A stretch of DNA of 64,000 bases from the NCBI GenBank assembly GCA_030730025.1, contig JANQWC010000013.1, positions 1 to 64,000 of the forward strand. Direction: 5' to 3'. The notes beneath the pieces were generated by a model. It did no database searches. It had not been told where the DNA came from and was given only the letters and a program-made list of their open reading frames with translations. Positions 15,722 to 27,768 of the stretch are shown here, in pieces. Made by a program: the position numbers and the translations under genes. Source of the DNA: Crocinitomicaceae bacterium (lineage in GTDB: Bacteria; Bacteroidota; Bacteroidia; Flavobacteriales_D; Crocinitomicaceae). Numbering within the stretch: the stretch's first letter is position 1; each line of letters starts with the position of its first letter.

Positions 15722-15800
15722 AAATAGATAGGTTTAGTTTTTCCTACTCTTTTGTGGCTTTTCGGATACCGCCAATAACATTTTGAATAACAATGATAAA

Positions 15801-20756: not shown

Positions 20757-23417
20757 TTAGAACTTGACAATTCGCTGTGTGTTTTCATTGATTTGAACCA
20801 GGTAAGTACCCGGTTTTAAATTGCTGAGGTCTAGGGAATGACTTGCACCATTCACATTGGCTATTTGCAGTACTTTGCCATTCAGGTCGGTGAGGATTAT
20901 GTTACCAACATAAACCTTACTCAAAGTAATGTGAAGTAAATCTGAAGTTGGGTTCGGCGCAATGGTAGCCGTCATTTCTAAAGAGGTGAGCCCAAGGACG
21001 CCGTCTACGCCGTCGCAGTTTTCATCGATGCCGTTTCCTTCGGTATCTACAGCACCAGGGTACGCGCTGTTGTTGCTGTCGTCGCAGTCGCCGGTTTGGG
21101 TAGCGTAGCCTGCAATTGGGGTACAAGAAACCGTTGGGTTACCAATTCCATAACCATCGCTGTCGCCATCAAAATAGTAGTTTAAGAAGGTAAGGCCTTC
21201 GTCTTCTTGACCATCGCAGTTGTTGTCAATGCCGTCACATACTTCAGAAGCGCCAGGGTTGACTGCATTGTTGTTGTCATCGCAGTCGCCGCCAATCGCA
21301 ATCATGTTGACTGGTGCTTGGCAAAACAAAACACCTGTAGCGTCGTCGCCATAGCCGTCTTGGTCGTTGTCTGAGTAATACATCGTTGGTGCAATAATTG
21401 AGGCATTGGTATCGTCACAATCGCCACTGGCCAATACATAGCCTGCAGGCTGAACACATGCTGTTTGTGTCACGGCAGCATTTCCAACTTGATCGTTATC
21501 TAAATCTTGGTACCAAACCGTATTTGGATTGATCAACGCGTCGGCATCATTGCAATCGGTGTTATTAGCGACAAATCCTGCAGGTGCATTACAAAGCAGG
21601 GTATCCATCGCTGGGTCTCCGAATCCGTCGCCATCTGTATCCGCATAGTACAAAGTAGGTAAAACGGTAATGGCATTCCCCCAAAGAGAAACGTTGTCCA
21701 TTCTAAGTGTAGAAGTATTTGTGGCCTGATTGATGACATAAAAGCGGAACGTAACTGTGCTGACGTTGGCAAAAGTTGCTGGTAAAAGTACGGTATCGGC
21801 CAACGCTACATTGCCATTCCAAGAAGAGGCAATTGTATCGATGTTTGCAGTAAAGTTATCGAGGCTCGAACGCACAAAAATTGTTGGCGTACCACCAGTA
21901 GAACTCGTGCGGTGATTGAGGGCCAATTTCGCTAAATTCAGGTTGCTACAGTTAGCACCAGTAATGGTGAACTCGTTGTATTGCGCTGCATCAAAAAGAG
22001 CCGTTTGATTCCAGCCACTGCGGTTGAAAACACCACCACCAGAGGCACAAGTAGAGCCTTGCGCAGTGAAATCAGAGAAAGTCCAGTTGGTGCTGGTATT
22101 GGTTGCCGCTACATCTTGGGTTGCACAATCTACTGTTGCAGCAAACTGATAAATACCTAATTGGAGTGGTGCATCGAAACCATTACAGTCTTCGTCAATA
22201 CCATTGCCTGGCACGTCCACCGCACCTGGGTAAATAGCGTTGTTGTTGTCATCGCAGTCGGTGCTATTGGTGACATAACCGGTAATTGCCGCACAACCCG
22301 ATTGTGAAACGGCAGCGTTACCAAAACCATCGTTGTCTAAATCTTGATAGTAAGTCAAGGAACCAACGACACTGAGGTTGAGTGTGATTGTGCTGTCGCA
22401 ACCCGCTACGTTTTGAGTCAGTTGGGTATAAGTACCAGAAGCGCTATACGTTTGGTTGTTTAACGTATAAGGACCACAATTGGTGATGTTCAAGGTAGAT
22501 GTATTCGCATTGTTGATGGTTAAGCTCAGGTTGATGATGGAGTCACAACCTGCTGCATTCGCGTTCGCTAGTGTTTGAACGTAGGTACCAGAGGTTGTAT
22601 AGGTTTGGTTGTTGAGTGTGTATGTGTTACATGCTGAGGCAGTAATTGTATTGTAGCTCACGCAAGAAGCGGCTGCACCCGGCGTCACTGAAGCCCAGGT
22701 TTCACCTGCGCGAATTTCGTCGATTTCAAAAGTTCCAATGCCTCCTGCCTGACGCAAGGCTACTGATTGAATACCTGCGGCTGGCCATTGTGAACTCCCC
22801 TGAGAATTAGTGGCTCCGGCAACAGGCTCTGCTGCGCCAGCAACTGGATTGAGCCATAGACTTGCATCTATGCCACCAGAAGCATTTTGAACAGCTTTTG
22901 CTACGATAAAATAAGTGACATTTGGATTCAAGTCTTGACTAATAAATGAAGGAACGACAGTTCCGCCAGATGTATTCAAGATACCAATTTTAAATGTACC
23001 AGGTGTCGACCCTAATGCAGTATAAATTCTCGGGAAATAAATAGAGACAGAGGCGCCAGCTGTCCCGCCAAAAGCAATAAAATAGCTGCCGCTGGCCGTC
23101 ATGTTGGATAAATCAGTTACATTCAACAAAAAGGAAAGATAACCAACTGTGCCAGTAGTAGTAAATGGTTTGTTGATATCTTGTGCAACGGAACCAGACA
23201 TCGAGACCCGATTACCTAACGAAGCTTGTAATCCAGGATAAGAAAGACTATTACCGGAACCTGATGGGGTCGTTAGAGCTGTAATTGGTCCGGTGGTACC
23301 GCTGTGAACGGTCCAGCCGTTTGCAGAAGCCAAACCCGTAAAATTGAAGGATTCAAAAGCCTGCGCAAACACATTGAGGCTTAGGATGGTGAGGATAAAT
23401 AGTAAACCTGTTTTCAT
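20757..23417 (-). CDS. T9SS-exported protein with MopE-type metal-binding repeats
   Basis: 886 aa. Signal peptide (about 1-18), then a lectin/LamG-like beta region (to about 235), a short repeat pair (TLNNQTY..SGTY..CDSTI), and five MopE-type repeats starting with YYxDxDxDGxG and ending DCDD..N..NPGA or GIDENCDG: one near residues 354-415, four near 588-815. An intervening beta domain lies at about 416-585. The Asp/Asn-rich loops suggest Ca2+ or other metal binding. The C-terminus (APNPTSDLLHI ... LKPGTYLVQI ... IVKF) is a T9SS type A sorting domain, so the protein is exported to the surface. Ligand unknown. Confidence 0.9.
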   Translation of the reverse strand: MKTGLLFILTILSLNVFAQAFESFNFTGLASANGWTVHSGTTGPITALTTPSGSGNSLSYPGLQASLGNRVSMSGSVAQDINKPFTTTGTVGYLSFLLNVTDLSNMTASGSYFIAFGGTAGASVSIYFPRIYTALGSTPGTFKIGILNTSGGTVVPSFISQDLNPNVTYFIVAKAVQNASGGIDASLWLNPVAGAAEPVAGATNSQGSSQWPAAGIQSVALRQAGGIGTFEIDEIRAGETWASVTPGAAASCVSYNTITASACNTYTLNNQTYTTSGTYVQTLANANAAGCDSIINLSLTINNANTSTLNITNCGPYTLNNQTYSASGTYTQLTQNVAGCDSTITLNLSVVGSLTYYQDLDNDGFGNAAVSQSGCAAITGYVTNSTDCDDNNNAIYPGAVDVPGNGIDEDCNGFDAPLQLGIYQFAATVDCATQDVAATNTSTNWTFSDFTAQGSTCASGGGVFNRSGWNQTALFDAAQYNEFTITGANCSNLNLAKLALNHRTSSTGGTPTIFVRSSLDNFTANIDTIASSWNGNVALADTVLLPATFANVSTVTFRFYVINQATNTSTLRMDNVSLWGNAITVLPTLYYADTDGDGFGDPAMDTLLCNAPAGFVANNTDCNDADALINPNTVWYQDLDNDQVGNAAVTQTACVQPAGYVLASGDCDDTNASIIAPTMYYSDNDQDGYGDDATGVLFCQAPVNMIAIGGDCDDNNNAVNPGASEVCDGIDNNCDGQEDEGLTFLNYYFDGDSDGYGIGNPTVSCTPIAGYATQTGDCDDSNNSAYPGAVDTEGNGIDENCDGVDGVLGLTSLEMTATIAPNPTSDLLHITLSKVYVGNIILTDLNGKVLQIANVNGASHSLDLSNLKPGTYLVQINENTQRIVKF

Positions 23418-25801: not shown

Positions 25802-26071
25802 TTAACGACGAAGTCCTAATTCTTTGATCAAGGCACGGTATTTCTCGATATCGTTTGCCTTTAGGTAATCAAGAAGGCTACGACGCTTACCAACTAACAA
25901 CTGAAGTGCGCGTTGGGTACCGTAGTCTTTGCGGTTCTTTTTCAAGTGCTCAGTAAGGTGAGCAATGCGAAAAGTAAACAAGGCCACTTGGCCTTCTGTA
26001 GAACCGGTGTTGGTTTCTGAACCACCGTGTTTGGCGAAGATCTCTTTCTTCTTTGCTGAATCTAGATACAT
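25802..26071 (-). CDS. rpsO: 30S ribosomal protein S15
   Basis: 89 aa, full length. Hallmarks: TGSTEGQVALFTFRI, LTEHLKKNRKDYGTQRALQLLVGKRRSLLDYL. S15 binds the 16S rRNA central domain early in 30S assembly. The promoter lies about 60 nt upstream, and the leader carries a perfect short hairpin, which matters because S15 often controls its own mRNA in other bacteria. Confidence 0.98.
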   Translation of the reverse strand: MYLDSAKKKEIFAKHGGSETNTGSTEGQVALFTFRIAHLTEHLKKNRKDYGTQRALQLLVGKRRSLLDYLKANDIEKYRALIKELGLRR

Positions 26072-26104
26072 GCTAATATTTGTGTAAATGATTATTATGT
26101 AGAC

Positions 26105-26119
26105 TGACCACCTTGGTCA
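26105..26119 (-). promoter_or_regulatory. Hairpin in the rpsO 5' leader
   Basis: TGACCA, 3-nt loop, TGGTCA, just downstream of the rpsO promoter and about 35 nt before the ATG. A candidate S15 autoregulatory element by position only; no match to a described S15 leader class is claimed. Confidence 0.4.
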
Positions 26120-26128
26120 ATACGGCTG

Positions 26129-26160
26129 CAAAGATAAGAACTCTTTTTGATACGCACAAA
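26129..26160 (-). promoter_or_regulatory. Promoter of rpsO
   Basis: On the minus strand TTTG (26160-26157), 20 nt, TATCTTTG (26136-26129). Full Bacteroidota consensus, giving a leader of about 50 nt. Confidence 0.75.
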
Positions 26161-26180: not shown

Positions 26181-26188
26181 TATCTTTG
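26181..26188 (+). promoter_or_regulatory. -7 box of the cobalamin-riboswitch transcript
   Basis: TATCTTTG immediately before the aptamer; transcription would start near 26192-26197. No clear -33 box. Divergent from the rpsO promoter. Confidence 0.5.
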
Positions 26189-26194
26189 CAGTGT

Positions 26195-26375
26195 TCTTAG
26201 GTGTTCGCTCGTCGAACTTAATAAGGAATCCGGTTAGAATCCGGAGCTGTATCTGCAGCTGTAAGTGTCTAAAAAGTTGCTTTCACAAAGCCACTGCGCA
26301 AGCGGGAAGGCAAAGCAACAACAGGCATGAGCCAGAAGACTTGCCCTCGAACAGCGTGAAGACTTCAGATCAAGG
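26195..26375 (+). ncRNA. Cobalamin riboswitch (aptamer)
   Basis: The conserved cobalamin aptamer core is readable in order: AATAAGGAATCCGG; P4 TCCGG (26229-26233) with CCGGA (26241-26245); P5 GCTG with CAGC and the following TGTAAGTG; GCCACTG and CGGGAAGG around 26290-26310; a perfect 8-bp helix GTTGCTTT (26276-26283) with AAAGCAAC (26312-26319); and the B12 box GCCAGAAGACTTGCC (26331-26345). An outer pairing TGTTCG/CGAACA encloses the core. It should bind adenosyl- or other cobalamin and repress the downstream gene. It occupies most of the 386-bp gap between rpsO and the downstream ATG. Confidence 0.93.
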
Positions 26376-26377
26376 TC

Positions 26378-26421
26378 GGTATCGCCAAGGGCTTCGTATA
26401 CCCTTGCCGCTCCACTTTTTT
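26378..26421 (+). promoter_or_regulatory. Possible expression platform of the cobalamin riboswitch
   Basis: Two mutually exclusive hairpins share bases 26401-26402: GGTAT (26378-26382) with ATACC (26398-26402), and CAAGGG (26386-26391) with CCCTTG (26401-26406), the latter followed by CCGCTCCAC and six T. A terminator/antiterminator switch is possible, but the T run is 9 nt from the stem, so it would be an imperfect terminator. Confidence 0.4.
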
Positions 26422-26457
26422 CCGTGTCCTTGTTTAATTTATTTAAATGTTCAACAC

Positions 26458-27711
26458 ATGAAAAAAGGATTATTTATGTTTGCCGCACTCACCAGTGCGA
26501 GTTTGTACGCCCAACAGTACGTACACCAAGTGCTCATTGCCAACGAAGGTTTCTTTGACTTTCAAACCAACGCCATCATTGAGCCAGCCACCATCGGATC
26601 TTACAATCCGCAAACCCAAGCATATGTAGTTGTAGATACCCTTGACGGGCAGCGCTTCAGCTCAGATGTGCTCATCGACGGTGACTTTTATTTTGTAGCA
26701 GCCGATACCAAAATTTTCAAATACAACCTCAATACCCATCAAGAAGTGGGTAGCATTAGCCTTCCGGGTGTGCGCAACCTCGCCATCGCCGGCGACAAAC
26801 TCATCGCAACGCGCGGCGAGTACCTGCAAACCTTCGACTCCTACCTTCAGATTTTCGACAAAAACTCGTTGCAACTCATCGCGGCACTCGACACCAACAA
26901 CGGCCCTAAATGGGCGACGCAAAACATCGTTGTGGTCAATAACATCGCTTATATCGCTGTCAACAACGCGTATGAGTGGGGTAACGAGAAAGGCCTTATT
27001 GGTCAGCTAGACCTCAGCACGCTCCAATACGGTTCTGAAATTGACCTCGGCGCAGAGGGCAAAAACCCAGACAACATGTTCTTGTACAACAACGAACTCT
27101 ATACCGTTAACAACAAAGACTGGTCTGGCGCTTCTGTTTCAAAAGTCAGCCTCAACGGCGCAGTGAATACACAAAACTTAGCCAACGCCGTCACAGGCTG
27201 TGGCACCTCTGCCCTACGCGACGACAAACTCGTTTACCAAATTTCCATGGAAAACACCCTCAACGACTACAGCTTGCTCAACATGACTTTAGTTGGGCCA
27301 GTTGCAGGCATCACCAACAACTTCTACGACCTCGCTCAAGAACCCATCAGCGGCAACCTTTATGCTTCAACAACAGACTTCTTTTCTACAGGAAGCGTGA
27401 GCATTTTTGACAACGCCAACAACCTCGTTGATCAATTTTCAGCTGGCGTATCTCCAGGCACTATTGTTTTTGATGTGCGCTCAAGCGTTGGCCTTACAGA
27501 ACACAACACTACCATTGGTGTTTATCCCAACCCGTCAAACGGCGTTTTCCAAATTGCTGGCCTCACAACAGGCGAAACTTACCAAGTCTCGAACGCCACC
27601 GGTAAAGTCATTTTTGAAGGACAAACGAGTACTTTTGACTTGAGCGCTTTTGAAGCCGGTGTTTATTTGATCCAAACACCATCTGGTCAGGCAAGAGTCC
27701 TTAAATATTAA
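26458..27711 (+). CDS. T9SS-exported propeller-like protein under cobalamin riboswitch control (BtuG/YncE-like)
   Basis: 417 aa. Signal peptide (residues 1-18, ASLYA-QQ). Residues about 20-335 are a repeated beta pattern that I read as a seven-bladed propeller of the YncE/DUF5074 type: VLIANEGFF at the start, then recurring units such as GDFYFVAADTKIFKYN, GDKLIATRGEY..LQIFDK, NNIAYIAVNNAY, NNELYTVNNKDW and FSAGVSPGTIVFDV. In Bacteroides the similarly built, B12-regulated BtuG binds cobalamin at the cell surface and passes it to BtuB; BtuG is a lipoprotein, whereas this one ends in a T9SS type A domain (YPNPSNGVFQI ... FDLSAFEAGVYLI ... RVLKY). No btuB, btuF or tonB-type gene is adjacent. Start ATG 26458. 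Cobalamin binding is an inference. Confidence 0.85.
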   Translation: MKKGLFMFAALTSASLYAQQYVHQVLIANEGFFDFQTNAIIEPATIGSYNPQTQAYVVVDTLDGQRFSSDVLIDGDFYFVAADTKIFKYNLNTHQEVGSISLPGVRNLAIAGDKLIATRGEYLQTFDSYLQIFDKNSLQLIAALDTNNGPKWATQNIVVVNNIAYIAVNNAYEWGNEKGLIGQLDLSTLQYGSEIDLGAEGKNPDNMFLYNNELYTVNNKDWSGASVSKVSLNGAVNTQNLANAVTGCGTSALRDDKLVYQISMENTLNDYSLLNMTLVGPVAGITNNFYDLAQEPISGNLYASTTDFFSTGSVSIFDNANNLVDQFSAGVSPGTIVFDVRSSVGLTEHNTTIGVYPNPSNGVFQIAGLTTGETYQVSNATGKVIFEGQTSTFDLSAFEAGVYLIQTPSGQARVLKY

Positions 27712-27726
27712 TATTTCACAACCCCT

Positions 27727-27759
27727 TAAAAAAGGCTGTTCGTTTGAGCAGCCTTTTTT
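27727..27759 (+). terminator. Terminator of the riboswitch-controlled gene
   Basis: AAAAAAGGCTG / CAGCCTTTTTT with a 10-nt loop, 16 nt after the stop. Strong intrinsic terminator. Confidence 0.9.
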
Positions 27760-27768
27760 GTGTTTGCT

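Follow-up and report, generated by a model that had tools for sequence, protein, structure and literature searches.

The window, a 64,000-nucleotide stretch of DNA from a Crocinitomicaceae bacterium, belongs to a genome of 1.78 Mb that is assembled in 28 contigs and 81% complete. On its forward strand a cobalamin riboswitch aptamer (26182–26362) precedes an open reading frame for a 417-residue protein (26458–27711), with a spacing of 95 bases between aptamer and ATG. The aptamer matches the Rfam model RF00174 over its entire length (model positions 1–189 of 189; cmscan, 89 bits, E 1.1e-20), which is above the gathering score of 31.5. Thus, the search of 26190–26380 recommended in the first-pass annotation bears out the complete cobalamin aptamer proposed there. 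The B12 box GCCAGAAGACTTGCC lies inside the aptamer at 26331–26345, and GTTGCTTT (26277–26284) and AAAGCAAC (26312–26319) are its paired elements. A second RF00174 match was not found in this 81% complete genome. As judged by eye, TATCTTTG at 26181–26188 on the forward strand fits the Bacteroidetes −7 consensus TAnnTTTG, given in PMC9723704, and represents a candidate promoter; a sigma-70 promoter scan was uninformative, with 2 sites compared to 2.0 in shuffled sequences.

A consensus fold of the window and ten near relatives places a probable expression platform at 26361–26421 of the forward strand. By eye, GACTT (26361–26365) is able to pair with AAGGTC (26372–26377). Alternatively, AAGGTC can provide the 5′ arm of a long terminator-like hairpin (26372–26418), which reaches into a T-run at 26416–26421. 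In the RNAalifold consensus this hairpin comprises 17 pairs, four of which are compensatory, with at least one sequence altered on both sides, and an alignment of 16 sequences displays strong conservation of the stretch 3′ of the aptamer. Since the folding energy of the single sequence is ordinary (z −0.86) and the hairpin is absent from the output of a plain terminator scan, it is the comparison between relatives that argues for the platform. Its layout would fit transcription termination upon binding of B12.

Downstream of the gene, a 15-pair stem followed by a T-run (27727–27760, forward strand) forms a second terminator-like hairpin, although the mere count of such sites in the region, 2 versus 2.2 expected in shuffled sequences, provides no evidence. 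The next gene 3′ of this hairpin encodes a phosphoribosyltransferase. The unit appears to consist of a switch, one gene and a terminator, and among the neighbouring genes in the window neither btuB nor btuF lies within it. An S15-Flavobacteria ribosomal leader (RF03161, 62 bits, 26069–26136, reverse strand) is oriented divergently at a distance of 45 bases from the cobalamin riboswitch. Elsewhere in the window, the reverse strand encodes at 20757–23417 an 886-residue T9SS protein that contains three metal-binding motifs of the MopE type, and a DUF805b RNA motif (RF02914, 45 bits, 15741–15775, reverse strand) precedes a bacteriorhodopsin-like gene (PF01036, 14972–15721, reverse strand) by about 20 bases. 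The gene behind this motif is not DUF805, and no paper joining both terms was found.

The 417-residue protein is composed of a putative signal peptide (about residues 1–18), a BtuG-like propeller (about residues 20–341) and a T9SS type A sorting domain (residues 355–413). By eye, the N-terminus MKKGLFMFAALTSASLYAQ resembles a signal peptide that has no lipobox cysteine; a lipoprotein test was negative, with no cysteine near the N-terminus and the T9SS tail present instead. This tail is the only domain detected above curated cut-offs, both by Pfam (Por_Secre_tail, PF18962, 37.7 bits with a cut-off of 27) and by NCBIfam (TIGR04183, 30.5 bits with a cut-off of 23). Hence the frame with its sorting domain, like the lack of btuB and btuF in the operon, is as the first-pass annotation had described it. 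All other Pfam matches of the single sequence are sub-threshold (OLF, E 0.00039; End_beta_propel, E 0.034), and DUF5074 is not matched up to an E-value of 1. The genome encodes the T9SS translocon component SprA (SprA_N, 519 bits, in a frame of 2459 residues). Closest titled relatives of the protein stem from metagenome-assembled genomes mostly assigned to Crocinitomicaceae, Cryomorphaceae or Flavobacteriales, some bearing other titles, for example Chryseobacterium gleum or Chitinophaga pinensis.

The proposed resemblance to YncE/DUF5074 propellers fails in single-sequence Pfam searches but is supported when profiles are used. If phmmer is run against the PDB with the single sequence, BtuG chains score no better than an E-value of about 0.01. 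A profile of 48 sequences (the protein and 47 of its 68 relative loci, alignment A2) finds 12 PDB sequences, three of them through the T9SS tail. The other nine chains, annotated as surface layer protein or YncE family protein or, for 3dsm, as uncharacterized, match mainly residues 287–339, about the last blade only, with a best E-value of 6.5e-6, and all of them are also matched by the operon-encoded BtuG P0009. For hhalign the propeller domain was represented by 58 of 69 sequences, 11 being dropped for their length or a missing cutting motif. This comparison yielded a probability of 99.0% (E 9.3e-18, 227 columns) with 13 BtuG lipoproteins of riboswitch operons, 99.8% with the T9SS-type propellers of such operons and 1.2% with a control family. 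With the BtuG-like lipoproteins of marine loci (P0012 family) it reached only 18.9% over 29 columns, which counts against the BtuG reading. In the alignment with BtuG the identity is 14%, with a clear common last blade. Taken together, the profiles indicate that the propeller domain is a distant relative of BtuG.

In BtuG2, Trp194, Trp272 and Tyr316 narrow the cavity for the upper ligand and Tyr335 contacts the adenosyl group, as described in PMC10404256. The numbering was set by counting along the PDB chain; with an offset of 31, Trp194 coincides with a tryptophan, and Tyr316 and Tyr335 each coincide with a tyrosine. Judged by the alignment, Tyr316 would correspond to Tyr290, a position that is at least 90% conserved in A2. 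However, Tyr335 aligns with Phe308, and the position of Trp194 falls into a conserved NNAYEWGN loop with no clear tryptophan counterpart; both count against a role in B12 capture. The operon BtuGs P0003 and P0009 do match DUF5074 in Pfam. Since a DUF5074 match, a lipid anchor and linkage to btuB are all missing, the protein of the window is not classed as BtuG.

The distribution of the gene was surveyed in 37 genomes of the genus, including that of the window, whereby the protein was counted if the match covers the propeller or part of it. It is present in 31 of these genomes; one copy is split over two contigs and some others are cut at contig ends, but all matches listed are open frames without stops. 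Comparison of coordinates by hand places RF00174 directly upstream of the gene in all 31 (one match is partial). Exactly one RF00174 match is found in each of the 35 genomes that have any. In four genomes (G017, G019, G026, and G027) the switch is present and the protein absent, while G007 (99% complete) and G032 (66% complete) display neither.

A wider set comprises 68 loci on genome contigs which encode relatives of the protein. Within 420 bases upstream, a B12-box pattern occurs in 51 of them. For the remaining 17, cmscan locates RF00174 just upstream in 12, three start at a contig end, and two (L066 and L069) have no switch in the locus. Overall, 63 of the 68 loci carry the switch upstream of the gene; cmscan itself covered 22 loci and found an upstream match in 18. 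The L069 copy, in which the match is interrupted by a stop after just 96 residues, may have decayed. That marine loci lack the switch was considered and rejected, as the B12-box pattern proved too strict and cmscan finds RF00174 there. Using two BtuB sequences as tblastn queries (E up to 1e-4, best match per locus), BtuB matches were obtained in six of the 68 loci, five upstream of gene and switch and one on the opposite strand. None lies downstream on the same strand, several loci ending soon after the gene. The survey of btuB adjacency suggested in the first-pass annotation thus shows that 31 of the 37 genomes of the genus have a switched gene whose operon lacks BtuB.

In the four genomes possessing a switch but not the protein, the riboswitch is followed by a DUF4465-type protein, BtuB (P0002), a lipoprotein BtuG with DUF5074 (P0003) and a T9SS-type protein. 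The DUF4465 match in Pfam and the T9SS tail were established for G017; the remaining three were assigned by similarity. This operon is followed by radical SAM and phosphoribosyltransferase genes, which in some genomes of the genus are neighbours of the stand-alone gene as well. P0002-type BtuB was found in just these four of the 37 genomes (E up to 1e-10), by a search so narrow that the genuine BtuB of G049 escaped it, and no genome of the genus searched has both the stand-alone protein and the BtuB operon. Since the four genomes appear to be close kin in a tree of a neighbouring gene, this mutual exclusion does not represent four independent events. In the tree of the neighbouring 339-residue radical SAM gene, G033, which carries the stand-alone gene, falls inside the BtuB-operon group (0.99 with G017), whereas its protein groups with the other stand-alone copies (0.98). 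Because neighbour gene and protein of G033 group differently, more than one exchange at this locus is hinted at, based on one gene and 13 loci.

Relatives in the same order (G049, G046, and G041) combine the switch, a propeller as first gene, a T9SS-type protein and BtuB. Their propellers are 25–26% identical to the protein of the window, with the T9SS tail established in G049, and a BtuG lipoprotein is the last gene of the G049 and G046 operons. BtuB and BtuG of G049 match solved BtuB and BtuG chains with E-values of 2e-67 and 1.9e-55. At locus L137 (4558–9731), the operon opens with the T9SS propeller, includes BtuB and ends with a lipoprotein BtuG that carries DUF5074 (E about 2e-55 to solved BtuG). 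The description of the protein as a T9SS-exported BtuG is therefore right as to relationship and tail, but since the L137 operon contains both types together with BtuB, the T9SS propeller forms a separate branch, able to coexist with lipoprotein BtuG, and not a BtuG exported by another route. As a side observation, the operons of L137, L135 and L136 consist of the riboswitch, a T9SS-type propeller, a member of a family of about 320 residues (P0004/P0007) and BtuB; in L137 and L135 the final gene encodes the lipoprotein BtuG. P0004/P0007 display a T9SS tail and no other Pfam domain, and constitute an accessory family of B12 loci. At the marine loci L058 (8001–10337), L060, L063, L064 and L068, a homolog whose tail is shortened comes directly after the switch, and a lipoprotein comes next. 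This lipoprotein family matches BtuG at 99.7% in hhalign; its L058 member P0012 has no Pfam match.

All of the 37 genomes except G010 (74% complete) show domains that bind B12 (PF02310), which makes 36. By their sizes, the frames could represent methylmalonyl-CoA mutase, a fused form of the mutase, MetH, and a regulator resembling CarH. A FecCD permease is encoded in 32 of the 37 genomes. The window's genome has one FecCD-type permease, whose gene lies together with a frame of the size of an ATPase and one for a periplasmic binding protein; NCBIfam leaves its substrate unsettled.

The combined observations suggest that the protein is probably a B12-repressed, T9SS-exported corrinoid catcher, which hands B12 over to an unlinked TonB receptor. 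At low intracellular cobalamin the aptamer would be empty, the terminator-like hairpin would not form and the single gene would be transcribed. The product would cross the inner membrane by means of its signal peptide and the outer membrane via T9SS, ending on or near the cell surface. Here, the BtuG-like propeller would capture corrinoids and deliver them to a TonB-dependent receptor, whose gene would lie elsewhere and be free of recognised cobalamin riboswitch control. When cobalamin is plentiful, the switch would turn the gene off. Within this scheme we infer the OFF control, the corrinoid binding and the hand-over to an unlinked receptor, and it is the context of the gene that points to a protein acting like a B12 catcher.

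This reading is supported by the full-length riboswitch being the sole match found, some covariation in the hairpin behind it, the conserved linkage of gene and switch, the relationship to BtuG with Tyr290 in the place of Tyr316, and the context of BtuB operons, where in four genomes of the genus the first place belongs to DUF4465, a domain reported to bind B12. Further support comes from the marine loci, which combine switch, homolog and BtuG-like lipoprotein, and from a genome equipped with SprA, B12-binding domains and a FecCD permease. It is weakened by the low identity to BtuG, by PDB matches that cover about the last blade, and by the low score with the P0012 family. The unswitched L066 and L069 also count against it, as does G007, which has B12-binding domains despite lacking both switch and protein. 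Finally, 14 of the 31 genomes with the protein gave no match to the candidate for the receptor.

This candidate, P0014, is an unlinked TonB receptor of 654 residues in the window's genome, which obtained 126 bits when a BtuB profile of 16 sequences was run on 23 genomes. The best score among 16 genomes reached via the protein's loci, some of which may be repeats, was 138 bits, most being below 70. In calibration, true BtuBs left out of the profile score 185–508 bits and six other receptors 42–79 bits, two of the latter being riboswitch-linked members of other families. With a profile omitting the G017 lineage, P0014, P0015 and P0016 obtain 118, 150 and 96 bits and the left-out BtuB of G017 obtains 185, so that P0014 lies above the other receptors and below left-out true BtuBs. 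Relatives of P0014 occur in 19 of the 37 genomes (a weak match in G021 was left out, and that in G020 is a fragment). As the P0002 search missed the BtuB of G049, and receptors that are linked to riboswitches in G055 and G045 obtain no more than 53–81 bits with the profile, a divergent BtuB could be missed; the absence of BtuB matches was thus rejected as proof that these genomes have no BtuB.

A narrower form of the corrinoid-catcher reading would make the protein a stable lid on an unlinked BtuB-like receptor of the P0014 type, comparable to BtuG on BtuB and bound to this one partner, the partner gene having moved away. In its favour are the scores of P0014, P0015 and P0016 relative to the six other receptors, and the presence of the P0014 type in 17 of the 31 genomes with the protein, including that of the window, and in none of the four with a BtuB operon. 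Accordingly, the earlier statement that the protein has no fixed BtuB partner stands with regard to the operon but is qualified by this weakly BtuB-like, unlinked receptor. However, left-out true BtuBs other than that of G017 score 210–508 bits, four of the 14 genomes in which the P0014 type was not found are 99% complete, and the type is present in G007, which has no protein to pair with it. By its NCBIfam score P0014 is as heme-like as B12-like (TonB-B12, 59.8 bits with a cut-off of 599.7, which the operon BtuBs P0002 and P0008 also fail to reach), and by eye its gene lies beside glycan-type genes. A lid of this kind is hence rather unlikely.

Another receptor type was rejected as B12 partner. 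P0010-like receptors (812–816 residues) are encoded just upstream in L043, L045, L046, L047 (partial) and L067, where the riboswitch sits between receptor and gene. Close relatives (68–71%) exist in all four BtuB-operon genomes; none was found in the genome of the window, and its near kin have only distant paralogs (about 35–38%) or none.

Cobalamin riboswitches also control genes whose products do not bind B12. The protein could accordingly be a surface adhesin, an enzyme or a receptor for another nutrient that is made when B12 is short, in line with its 14% identity to BtuG. Also in its favour, BtuL of a Bacteroides cobamide operon did not bind cobalamin according to PMC12751083. Given the relationship to BtuG, the first place of homologs in BtuB operons, and the lack of coexistence with a BtuB operon in the genomes of the genus searched, we regard such a role as unlikely. 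That the gene is a relic without a role, having once led a BtuB–BtuG operon that has since degraded, would agree with homologs leading riboswitch–BtuB operons in order relatives and with BtuB and BtuG missing downstream in the window, but is highly improbable in view of the open frames in the genus, a mean column identity of 60% with many invariant propeller residues among 48 sequences, and a switch retained in 63 of 68 loci, where decay would be expected.

Returning to the corrinoid catcher, a more far-reaching version can be put forward tentatively, with odds we consider to be against it. The genus, made up of B12-using aquatic flavobacteria, may largely have exchanged the linked BtuB–BtuG lid for a single T9SS-exported, ‘cobalophore-like’ propeller, encoded by the sole gene recognised as cobalamin-switched in the genome. 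This propeller would collect corrinoids on the cell surface or beyond it and supply a receptor other than a classical BtuB, the two strategies swapping at one locus behind the same kind of switch.

B12 can limit growth in natural waters. If a T9SS-exported catcher is real, many aquatic flavobacteria would have another way of bringing B12 catchers to the outside, and one recognised cobalamin riboswitch with one gene behind it would offer a clean genetic handle for seeking the partner receptor directly. The papers covered here on surface B12 capture in Bacteroidota mainly concern lipoproteins of gut Bacteroides encoded together with BtuB (PMC10404256, PMC8941943, PMC13398666, PMC6143338, PMC12751083). 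As reported in PMC6143338, 106 of 112 BtuG homologs in 313 human gut strains are encoded in btuB operons and the other six at places affected by incomplete assembly. In Flavobacterium psychrophilum, PMC9723704 describes a cobalamin riboswitch in front of a TonB receptor. The terms T9SS and Flavobacter are absent from the main text of PMC8941943, PMC13398666 and PMC6143338, and no report of a T9SS-exported BtuG-like protein was found in the open-licence literature searched, mostly at the level of titles and abstracts.

With other RF00174 riboswitches the element of the window shares a complete aptamer with B12 box and a probable switching hairpin downstream. In contrast to these, it controls a single exported protein of binding type and is the sole match found in its genome. 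A likeness also exists to DUF4465 proteins and BtuJ: in four genomes of the genus, the riboswitch is directly followed by a DUF4465 protein, and both would be stand-off B12 catchers, although BtuJ/DUF4465 is a jelly roll and the protein of the window a propeller. The DUF4465 domain is reported to bind B12 in PMC13398666 and PMC12751083, the latter describing BtuJ1/J2 of Bacteroides as lipoproteins linked to vesicles. The closest known system is BtuG, the seven-bladed YncE/DUF5074 propeller represented by BtuG2 of Bacteroides thetaiotaomicron (group of PDB 3dsm, 8baz, and 8bmy). Both have in common a distant homology over much of the propeller, control by a cobalamin riboswitch and a conserved tyrosine where Tyr316 of the pocket sits. 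However, BtuG carries an N-terminal lipid anchor, whereas the protein described here has a T9SS sorting domain, is encoded in an operon devoid of BtuB and as a single sequence misses DUF5074 in Pfam, and in L137 a homolog of the T9SS propeller stands beside a true BtuG in one operon.
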